A DNA stretch of 35,270 bases from a virus, in the IMG/VR virus record IMGVR_UViG_3300000116_000080, positions 1-35,270 of that record. One strand, given 5' to 3'. Under the pieces are notes generated by a model. That model had not been told where the DNA came from. It saw only the letters and a list, made by a program, of their open reading frames with translations, and searched no databases. Shown here in pieces: positions 4,137-34,949 of this stretch. How positions within the stretch are numbered: position 1 is the stretch's first letter; each line of letters opens with the position of its first letter. A program made the translations under genes and the position numbers.

Positions 4137-4976
4137 TTAACCTATCATGTCTAAAGGTGGAAGTTCGTATGTAGAAGACATTTTATCCATCAATGCATTC
4201 ATATCATTTACTCCGTCATCATAAATTTGTCTGCCGTTTAATTCTGTTCCTCCTGGAAGTTTTACTCCCTGGAACTTAATTAAATTTTGACCCCATTGCT
4301 TTTTCATGGCAGCAGTAACATATTTTTTTAAAAAAGAATCATTCCATACTTTTGGTGATTCTGCTGGATCAATTAATCTATAGCAATCAATAACTAAAAA
4401 TTGACCAGCAGTCATAGAACCCCAATCAGCATCAATATAAAGGCGGTCTTGCCTTTGATTAAATCTTATTTGTTTTTGTGTTGTGAGTAAAAAATCAATA
4501 TCTGATAAGTATCTTTTGGTCATTGAATATGTTAAAAGTTCTGTTGACCCCAAGAAGTAAACATCATTTAAAAATAATTGATACTTTATATTAAACATCC
4601 CACCAGAAAGTCCACTAGATCCTTCAAATGAAAATACTTTATTAATACCCATGACTTGGGGGGGAACTTGTATAAAGTTATTGGATTCAAAAAAGTCAAA
4701 TGTTGTAGGAGTTCCTCCTATAATAGCAGTTGCAGATGTTGTTGCTATACCTACACCATTGGAGGATGCTCTTGCTCTATCAATATCTTCTTGTGTAACT
4801 TTATATTTTAAAAACGTTTGAATGACACCATCAAAATGTCGTTCATAAAAGTATTGAAGAGAATCGTCAACAATATCTTCTAATTGCTCATCAGCAACAT
4901 TAATCTCCAATACTGGAGCACCCAATTGTCTTTTAGAATAGTCAATTAATTGTTGGCGAGTTGCTGGTTTTGCCAT
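4137..4976 (-). CDS. 13: Neck protein gp13
   Basis: 279 aa, close to T4 gp13 (309 aa). Together with gp14 it forms the neck that seals the packaged head and receives the tail. The start MAKPATRQQLIDYSKRQLGAP, the segment DEQLEDIVDDSLQYFYERHFDGV (residues about 29-51), FLVIDCYRLIDP and WNDSFLKKYVTAAMKKQWGQNLIKFQGVKLPGG are the typical gp13 signature in cyanophages, and the gene sits directly before gp14. The ATG begins one base after the stop of the upstream 71-aa gene, which argues for coupled translation. Confidence 0.94.
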   Translation of the reverse strand: MAKPATRQQLIDYSKRQLGAPVLEINVADEQLEDIVDDSLQYFYERHFDGVIQTFLKYKVTQEDIDRARASSNGVGIATTSATAIIGGTPTTFDFFESNNFIQVPPQVMGINKVFSFEGSSGLSGGMFNIKYQLFLNDVYFLGSTELLTYSMTKRYLSDIDFLLTTQKQIRFNQRQDRLYIDADWGSMTAGQFLVIDCYRLIDPAESPKVWNDSFLKKYVTAAMKKQWGQNLIKFQGVKLPGGTELNGRQIYDDGVNDMNALMDKMSSTYELPPLDMIG

Positions 4977-34287: not shown

Positions 34288-34324
34288 CCAGAACTGTCAT
34301 AAGACGATTCCAGAACTGGCATAA
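34288..34324. repeat. Two direct repeats CCAGAACTGKCATAA, 22 bases apart
   Basis: CCAGAACTGTCATAA at 34288-34302 and CCAGAACTGGCATAA at 34310-34324 differ by one base. The 22-base period is about two DNA turns, so both would face the same side of the helix, as expected for cooperative protein binding. Confidence 0.65.
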
Positions 34325-34329
34325 TTCTA

Positions 34330-34380
34330 ATGAGAATCAGTAGCAGTAACCCACCACAGACCCTTGAGACTGATTCTCAT
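34330..34380 (-). other. 12-base perfect inverted repeat after the 68-aa gene
   Basis: ATGAGAATCAGT (34330-34341) and ACTGATTCTCAT (34369-34380) are exact complements with a 27-base loop. It begins 5 bases past the stop of the 68-aa gene. No T-run follows on the minus strand, so it may be a rho-independent-like pause, an mRNA 3' stabiliser or an operator. Confidence 0.6.
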
Positions 34381-34385
34381 CAGCA

Positions 34386-34592
34386 TTAATCTATAAACCA
34401 ATCTACACTGCTTGACACGTCAACCCAAAAGTGGTAACGGTTGTTAGCACTTCGGAGGAACATTCTTCCATCTCTAATCTGCTCCACAACGCATACGGGA
34501 TCGCATGACATTAAGTTACAGAATCGATTCTTCGCTTTACTAGACTTTGGTGAAGCAAGCACAGATCCTTCGATTCCAATTTGAGTAGACAT
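34386..34592 (-). CDS. 68-aa protein, unknown function
   Basis: 68 aa, MSTQIGIEGSVLASPKSSKA start; the second half (VCVVEQIRDGRMFLRSANNRYHFWVDVSSSVDWFID) is rich in beta-forming residues and aromatic residues with a G-R-M-F turn, suggesting a small beta-barrel. Cys 25, 30 and 34 lie close together in FCNLMSCDPVC. It has a long structured leader upstream but no Shine-Dalgarno. Family not recognised. Confidence 0.7.
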   Translation of the reverse strand: MSTQIGIEGSVLASPKSSKAKNRFCNLMSCDPVCVVEQIRDGRMFLRSANNRYHFWVDVSSSVDWFID

Positions 34593-34620
34593 GGTAGAGA
34601 AGGAGAATGATTGAATTAAC

Positions 34621-34681
34621 GATATCCTACCATATGATATGAACTAGGTGTGAGGACTAGTTGATCATTTGATAGAATATC
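34621..34681 (-). ncRNA. Long imperfect hairpin in the 5' leader of the 68-aa gene
   Basis: Arms 34621-34647 and 34657-34681 pair over about 21 positions around a 9-base loop. Read as minus-strand RNA, the outer stem is GAUAU-U-CUA-U-CA against UG-G-UAG-G-AUAUC: the two non-Watson-Crick positions are U-G wobbles, then AUGAU/AUCAU and AACUAG/CUAGUU close the inner stem. Read from the plus strand those two positions would be A-C mismatches, so the structure favours minus-strand RNA. It could be a leader control element, a processing site or a small RNA. Confidence 0.5.
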
Positions 34682-34688
34682 ACGTATG

Positions 34689-34724
34689 TAAAATGCGCTC
34701 ACCTAGTCGAGACTTATGAGCGCA
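34689..34724 (-). terminator. Intrinsic terminator after the KTSC-like gene
   Basis: Minus-strand stem TGCGCTCA/TGAGCGCA (perfect 8 pairs, 15-base loop) followed by TTTTAC. It lies 16 bases after the stop of the KTSC-like gene. The T-run is short, so termination may be partial. Confidence 0.65.
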
Positions 34725-34737
34725 CATCTAGTCGAGA
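34703..34737. repeat. Direct repeat CTAGTCGAGA, period 25
   Basis: CTAGTCGAGA occurs at 34703-34712 (in the terminator loop) and 34728-34737 (just after the stop of the KTSC-like gene). The hairpin arm GAGCGCA lies between them. Confidence 0.5.
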
Positions 34738-34739
34738 TC

Positions 34740-34949
34740 TCAGACAGCAACGCTGGTGAGGACTTCTGCCTTGATTTCCTGGTTCACAAAACGACCCTTG
34801 GAAGCGGCAGCATTGAAGGCAGTGCAGAACGCCTCAACGCTCTCAACGCCGTAGGTGTACTGGCGACCACCAGTGAAGGTGACGAGGATCTGACCGTCAT
34901 CGTTGGTGCTAAGTGCTTCGATTGCAGAAGAAGTGAATGTGTTGATCAT
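34740..34949 (-). CDS. KTSC-domain-like small protein
   Basis: 69 aa. The pattern SSAIEAL...GQILVTFTGGRQYTYGVES.EAFCTAFNAAASKGRFVNQEIK matches the shape of KTSC domains (S..I....y....L.v.F..G..Y.Y..V....f..l..A.S.G.fvN..I), which occur as small stand-alone phage and bacterial proteins and at the end of some lysyl-tRNA synthetases. Its biochemical role is unknown; a nucleic-acid or protein adaptor role is a guess. G+C-richer than the tail genes. It has its own promoter inside the end of the upstream gene, a hairpin in its leader and a terminator after it, so it is a single-gene unit. Confidence 0.7.
   Translation of the reverse strand: MINTFTSSAIEALSTNDDGQILVTFTGGRQYTYGVESVEAFCTAFNAAASKGRFVNQEIKAEVLTSVAV

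Follow-up and report, generated by a model that had tools for sequence, protein, structure and literature searches.

The window, by which we mean the whole stretch of DNA analysed, is a 35,270-base virus record (IMG/VR record IMGVR_UViG_3300000116_000080) whose long ORFs lie mostly on the minus strand. It resembles the baseplate region of the Kyanoviridae phage S-SRM01: a 133-aa protein encoded in the window matches an annotated baseplate wedge subunit. An intergenic stretch at 34593-34739 separates an upstream KTSC-like gene of 69 aa (34740-34949, minus strand; Pfam KTSC, E 4.3e-05, 23.6 bits, under the cut-off of 25) from a downstream 68-aa gene (34386-34592, minus strand) that falls in PHROG 1653, a family with no known function. 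Read along the minus strand, an 18-nt repeat occurs twice in this stretch, the copies being spaced at 25 nt, and is followed by a hairpin and, after another 27 nt, by the ATG of the 68-aa gene. The ATG is preceded in the window by a pyrimidine-rich stretch, and no Shine-Dalgarno sequence is visibly sequestered by the hairpin. The 68-aa gene has a separate 20-nt inverted repeat at its 3' end (34322-34341 and 34369-34388, 90% complementary, 27 nt apart). The genome collection also yielded 11 loci with KTSC relatives; none of these is named as a cyanobacterium, and they were left out of the comparisons below.

Fold of the hairpin and its strand

The hairpin occupies 34620-34682 on the minus strand. 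In the predicted fold, 34670-34682 pairs with 34620-34632 to give a stem of 13 pairs. Further in are stems of 5 and 6 pairs, the first set off from the outer stem by a 1x1 internal loop and the second from the first by a 1x3 internal loop, and the innermost stem closes a 9-nt loop. The preliminary description had placed a 27/25-base inverted repeat here; the repeat is present at that place, although its pairing is interrupted by the two internal loops. On the minus strand, folding of 34600-34700 gave a minimum free energy of -23.1 kcal/mol (z -4.1) and that of 34612-34690 gave -22.9 (z -4.9), and in neither case did any of 200 shuffles fold as well. The plus strand gave z -1.6 (reached by 14 of 200 shuffles) and z -1.3 (23 of 200).

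A terminator had also been described next to the hairpin. By eye, an 8-bp stem (34717-34724 with 34694-34701, minus strand) with a 15-nt loop and a UUUUAC tail can be drawn at 34694-34724 around the second repeat copy, and it may be a weak terminator. It is, however, weaker than had been implied and better seen as part of the palindromic-site repeat discussed below. Our terminator scan, which accepts loops of 3-8 nt only, did not report this stem, and the equivalent of the tail in the related contig L005 reads UUCCAC.

Compensating changes among relatives

Protein searches identified 10 other contigs with a long hairpin at the same site before the 68-aa gene, three of which (L004, L006 and L081) start within or just past the KTSC-like gene. 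The sequences fall into four types: the window with L004 and L005; L006, L007, L008/L009 and L081; L086 (identical to L215); and L010 with L011 (identical to L219 and L220). All 10 distinct site sequences fold into a long hairpin. Eight sequences, representing the first three types, were combined in an alignment, A3; L219 and L220 were left out of it since their hairpins, which are different and consist of 12+4+4 pairs, could not be aligned with the others.

RNAalifold predicted 22 pairs from A3, 9 of them with two-sided changes. When a chosen 20-pair structure was imposed on A3, 96.9% of the 160 cells were paired, and 8 of the 20 pairs showed changes on both sides, compared with a mean of 2.8 in shuffled alignments (0 of 500 as high). 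The covariation score was 0.364 versus 0.188 in the shuffles, none of the 500 attaining the value of A3, and when the partner was displaced by 1-3 columns, 0 or 1 two-sided pairs were left. One of the five covariation measures, the number of further pair types, was less distinctive, its A3 value being reached by 40 of 500 shuffles. Because A3 consists of eight related sequences of only three types, there are fewer covariation events than cells. Since the two halves of the hairpin have changed together, the fold itself has probably been kept by selection. Relatives with the gene and no compensating changes had been named beforehand as the outcome that would speak against an RNA fold; the relatives examined here do have such changes. 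At the level of sequence comparison, a gene-strand hairpin kept by compensating changes is thus shown.

The non-Watson-Crick cells bear on the strand. In A3, 137 cells are Watson-Crick, 18 are G-U, none is A-C and 5 are of other kinds; by eye, the non-Watson-Crick cells correspond to about six or more separate changes. The two U-G wobbles on which the preliminary description had built its case for minus-strand RNA are real (A3 columns 19-80 and 23-76), and the window has a third near the base of the stem (columns 13-86). The excess of G-U over A-C argues that selection acts on the gene-strand RNA, as had been proposed, and not on a DNA site. An inverted repeat acting as DNA, either as an operator or as a cruciform, would account for the palindromic DNA sites that directly adjoin the hairpin and for the overlap of its 3' arm with a possible promoter. 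In a cruciform, however, every G-T of one strand corresponds to an A-C of the other and neither strand should be favored, and given the 18 G-U and 0 A-C cells we regard this explanation as very unlikely.

The folding energies point the same way. In all seven sequences tested, the gene strand was more extreme (z -4.9 to -8.2) than the opposite strand (z -1.3 to -5.4), and in all seven no gene-strand shuffle of 200 folded as well. In L216, L091 and L219 the opposite strand had a slightly lower absolute energy, and it also beat 200 of 200 shuffles. That the fold arose by chance might be entertained given how few sequence types are known, but with the shuffle results in seven of seven gene-strand sequences and the covariation this is barely conceivable.

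A covariance model, R1, was built from A3 and searched against sets of 83, 90, 90 and 71 sources; L181-L206, L304-L314, L400-L403 and some second copies of searched contigs were left out. In the window, which is one of its training sequences, R1 matched 34613-34687 on the minus strand with 78.6 bits. The model search that had been suggested for related phages recovered the training clade but did not extend it: within this scope, strong matches were confined to that clade and identical copies, with no independent new member, and the contigs of L219 and L220 were missed. Score and position were identical for L008 and L009, and antisense echoes of the matches appeared at the same places with 21-24 bits. 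The 35-kb window contains one R1 match and one match to a DNA pattern; as a source of further members that pattern, which suits one spacing only, was rejected after yielding two loci that were both already known.

No Rfam family matched the element at either gathering or relaxed thresholds, the sub-threshold matches lying off the element. Two sources list wcaG, manA, PhotoRC-II, the glutamine riboswitch (glnA) and CfrI as structured RNAs known in T4-like cyanophages (PMC2864571, PMC9964418). The wcaG, manA, PhotoRC-II and glnA models did not match at the element. The present hairpin is like these five RNAs in being a structured RNA of T4-like cyanophages, but it differs from them in its simpler fold and in its neighbor, the 68-aa gene without known function.

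A different possible small RNA is located downstream of the KTSC gene in L280-L283 and in L252, the latter being the contig of L090. It comprises a TGCTATA-T-like -10, a GAGAGG...CCTCTC hairpin, AAAGTCACCCGGCGAGTAACG (with variants in L252) and a strong terminator; in Rfam it gave only a sub-threshold overlap with L20_leader in L280 and L281, at 22.2 bits (gathering threshold 58.7).

The CUCACAC loop and its resemblance to Yfr1

The apical loop of the window hairpin contains the heptamer CUCACAC (34648-34654, minus strand), and the same heptamer is in a hairpin loop in all 10 distinct site sequences, on supporting stems that differ by type. Sequences of the window type carry it in the apical loop that the inner stem closes; the L216 and L215 types have it as a 7-nt loop closed by only 3-4 pairs; in L219 and L220 six pairs close an 8-nt loop that contains it. 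When the flanks were shuffled, the probability of the heptamer being in a loop was reached in 2, 0, 8, 11, 14, 15, 5 and 1 of 200 cases for eight sequences, so that loop presentation in the L216-type sequences and L215, where 5 to 15 of 200 shuffles reach the value, is modest. A tRNA-like reading of the 7-nt loop was discarded, ARAGORN having found no gene in the 6 loci scanned.

Gene-strand CTCACAC occurred in 12 of 27 non-redundant intergenic regions between KTSC and 68-aa genes and its complement GTGTGAG in none; mononucleotide shuffles of these regions, which are related and not independent, gave a mean of 0.43 and a maximum of 3 in 500. In five outer relatives (L353, L357, L367, L369 and L371) the stem extends into the heptamer and pairs its final two bases. 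Over all loci examined in an earlier count, 15 of 189 CUCACAC contexts were on a stem of at least 6 pairs, which does not exceed the highest of the control heptamers (range 0 to 15); the motif is therefore tied to the site between these two genes.

At the same syntenic place, distant phages carry another hairpin, GTGCCAG/CTGGCAC, with the loop UCCUCACA (2 loci) or UUCUCACA (7 loci), or other loops, namely UUCUCAUA, UUCUCAUG, or UUCUCGUA on GGGACAG/CTGTCCC (2 loci each), the loci in these counts overlapping between the sets fetched. Such short hairpins (GTGCCAG..CTGGCAC or GGGACAG..CTGTCCC) between the KTSC and 68-aa genes of L243, L245, L249, L350, L353 and L339 show apparent compensating changes and a common loop motif, with loops such as UUCUCACA and UCCUCACA.

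If the hairpin were only a signal for processing or decay, such as a site for RNase III or RNase E, or a stabilizer of the 3' end, its loop would carry no information. This would suit a long intercistronic stem whose shape is kept while its sequence drifts, but not a loop heptamer that is kept although the stem supporting it changes, and we consider it quite improbable.

The heptamer recalls a cyanobacterial small RNA. Yfr1 targets host outer-membrane-protein messages. Its ultraconserved unpaired motif is ACUCCUCACAC, an 11-mer that contains CUCACAC (PMC2190773). The window loop AGUCCUCACAC agrees with this undecamer at 10 of 11 positions, and L353 presents the same 11-mer on an unrelated stem. 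Thus the hairpin might belong to a trans-acting sRNA, either transcribed from a promoter of its own or processed out of the KTSC message, with CUCACAC as seed in the manner of the host RNA, and the presence of the heptamer in a loop in 10 of 10 site sequences would agree with this. The likeness to Yfr1 (RF01116) consists in the conservation of CUCACAC in an unpaired region of both; the difference is that the Yfr1 motif is in a linker between two stem-loops and the phage motif in a hairpin loop. The perfect undecamer is absent from the element, the types other than that of the window having in common with it only CUCACAC and little more. The RF01116 model, which did match the control genome of Synechococcus elongatus, had no match to the element. 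Nor is there a 3' intrinsic terminator like that of Yfr1: by eye, among the ten sequences a U run follows the hairpin only in L215. Finally, GTGTGAG in the 35-kb window is confined to the plus strand, with 2 sites (one being the hairpin itself) against 3.1 expected, and therefore no target is seen in the minus-strand, gene-sense RNA of this fragment; a kissing partner inside the window was rejected on the same count. On balance, we consider an sRNA unlikely.

A more specific version would make the hairpin a phage look-alike of Yfr1 whose (C)CUCACAC loop pairs with messages for host outer-membrane proteins, for example to block superinfection. If this were so, and since the 3' arm would be a promoter as well (see below), synthesis of the riboregulator and initiation for the 68-aa gene would be mutually exclusive on one template. 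We hold this version to be distinctly improbable. Literature searched for Yfr1 together with cyanophages, including PMC2518516, contained nothing on a phage Yfr1 as far as titles indicate.

Palindromic sites, the 3' arm and possible functions

The repeat copies upstream of the hairpin contain a palindromic site, which reads on the minus strand TCTCGACTAGA (copy 1, 34727-34737) and, 25 bp away, TCTCGACTAGG (copy 2, 34702-34712). The site reads TCTCGWCKAG, its most symmetric form being the palindrome ATCTCGWCGAGAT. Viral contigs contain at least 119 stretches with paired sites (TCTCGACKAG, 13-18 nt apart); a few of these, judged by eye, are GC-rich coding matches that probably arose by chance. 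Among 542 spacings between adjacent copies, a set from which near-duplicates were incompletely removed, 23-26 bp is the most frequent range, and there are additional peaks near 32-33 and 40. Among 20 records chosen for holding the site or a 68-aa relative, 17 had a site match, whereas the reversed-pattern control gave 0-2 per strand.

These sites cluster at one locus. In G001-G009 all copies are within 6.4 kb of each other, and of 15 records searched for the baseplate wedge gene, the 14 with a wedge match (all but G010) have the cluster 3.5-12.1 kb upstream of that gene. S-SRM01 carries its array at 85.5-91.0 kb (L294), plus one stray copy at 154 kb, and is the only one of 7 isolates with an array; S-SM2 and S-CAM8 have one match each, S-B05 has one palindrome, counted on both strands, and the other three have none. 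Other array loci include 34702-34737 of the window, L088, L125 and L295-L303. In some loci (L110 and L125, by eye) the site fills the spacer between -35 and -10, as an operator would. We regard the array as a candidate operator or origin array. The GC skew of S-SRM01, examined for a replication origin at the array, dips at 84-92 kb, and also at 20 and 216 kb, with no switch. A literature search with TCTCGACGAG returned nothing on phages, judged by title, and one for a palindromic intergenic promoter motif in cyanophages returned no such site in a title or the start of an abstract.

Of 18 array loci, 16 encode a protein like PHROG 12516, a family without known function (for example the ORF at 2125 in L160). 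It was rejected as a shared regulator of the array, relatives being found also in isolates with none or one site (such as Bellamy and S-SM2), and no array of another palindrome was found upstream of the relative in 4 isolates. By eye, the relative is behind two TTGACA sequences in 3 of the 4 isolates (Bellamy, S-SM2 and SynMITS9220M01). A short acidic ORF (MYDDYDLDYTY...DLDEYY...) is beside the array in 7 of 18 array loci, for example at 4585-4737 on the minus strand of L295, and by eye some site copies fall within its coding sequence as D-L-D-E codons.

On its other side the hairpin overlaps a promoter-like sequence. The 3' arm contains TGGTAGGAT (34624-34632, minus strand; A3 columns 74-82), which resembles an extended -10 and sits 37 nt upstream of the ATG of the 68-aa gene. 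In the window it is a weak -10 match (4 of 6 positions), and no -35 is apparent by eye. Columns 77-82 read TAGGAT, TACAAT or TATAGT in the eight rows, with TG at columns 74-75 in seven of them; columns 77, 78 and 82 are among the invariant stem columns, giving TANNNT in 8 of 8 rows. Four relatives that do not have the hairpin of this clade (L353, L357, L367 and L369) have a palindromic site near and, some 30 nt ahead of the ATG, carry TACAAT or TATAAT.

A -10 (at least 5 of 6 positions, located at -45 to -20) was present upstream of the 68-aa gene in 9 of 22 non-redundant site-bearing regions, compared with a mean of 2.2 and a maximum of 6 in 200 runs of shuffles; the nine comprise four regions from the hairpin clade itself (TGATACAAT at -37 or -38) and five from other phages. 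Part of this enrichment is general, since 70 site-free upstream regions also exceeded their shuffles (18 with a -10 versus a mean of 8.05 and a maximum of 16). By eye, the script set some start codons too far upstream (L339, L340 and L360), which may hide a -10. The TANNNT of the 3' arm stands where relatives have a probable -10.

Taking the overlap of the 3' arm with this possible -10 into account, the primary transcript of the 68-aa gene could start past the hairpin. We favor, tentatively and with somewhat less than even confidence, the view that the hairpin is a boundary element between two cistrons of a T4-like cyanophage, in which a stem-loop of the read-through RNA overlaps the promoter of the next gene. 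The hairpin would form in RNA running on from the KTSC-like gene and would end, protect or separate the upstream message. Its 3' arm would double as the -10 region of a promoter giving a fresh transcript for the 68-aa gene, which would itself lack the hairpin, the -10 being in that arm. A protein or a pairing RNA would probably make its contact at the CUCACAC loop.

The other reading with some claim is a cis-acting leader, in which transcription would start upstream of the hairpin and a bound protein, RNA or metabolite would control termination or translation of the 68-aa gene, as in an attenuator or riboswitch-like element. It would account for the position of the hairpin, which in each of the ten distinct sequences directly precedes a 68-aa relative. 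Cyanophage manA RNAs, too, are placed in potential 5' UTRs (PMC2864571). In L215, an intrinsic terminator identified by eye (ACCGTG-ATTCA-CACGGT-TTTTTT) lies between hairpin and ATG, a placement that fits attenuation better than a promoter; L215 is the main case against the boundary element and for an attenuator. It is, however, the only one of the ten sequences with a terminator there, and the lack of a visibly sequestered Shine-Dalgarno and of any Rfam leader match at the element also weighs against a leader. The preliminary description had put the hairpin in a leader and suggested that a leader switch, an RNase site or a small stable RNA could act there; the -10 overlap and the better reading of the "terminator" as a palindromic-site repeat both speak against a simple 5' leader. 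A leader is possible, in our judgment, but unlikely.

The boundary element invites comparison with the promoter early stem-loop (PeSL). PeSL elements are present in several copies per genome and mediate shuffling. According to PMC4503421, which cites Arbiol 2010 and Comeau 2014, PeSL cassettes of T4-type phages are dense in shuffling regions. The likeness would lie in a stem-loop and promoter packed between phage genes. A stem-loop between T4-like phage genes is found here, the T4-like context being the S-SRM01 baseplate match. For a sigma-70-type early promoter next to the stem-loop there is the TANNNT of the 3' arm and the enrichment in relatives, with no -35. For several copies per genome, only the single R1 match and the single DNA match were found in the window, which is a 35-kb fragment. 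Unlike in PeSL, the stem itself contains the promoter-like element and has evolved through compensating changes, and no evidence of shuffling was seen.

The hairpin is a covariation-supported RNA element of uncultured T4-like cyanophages that is absent from Rfam. Its loop is conserved and lends itself to testing, one of its arms contains a promoter-like element, and its study led to an array of palindromic sites at one conserved locus, a candidate control region of these phages.
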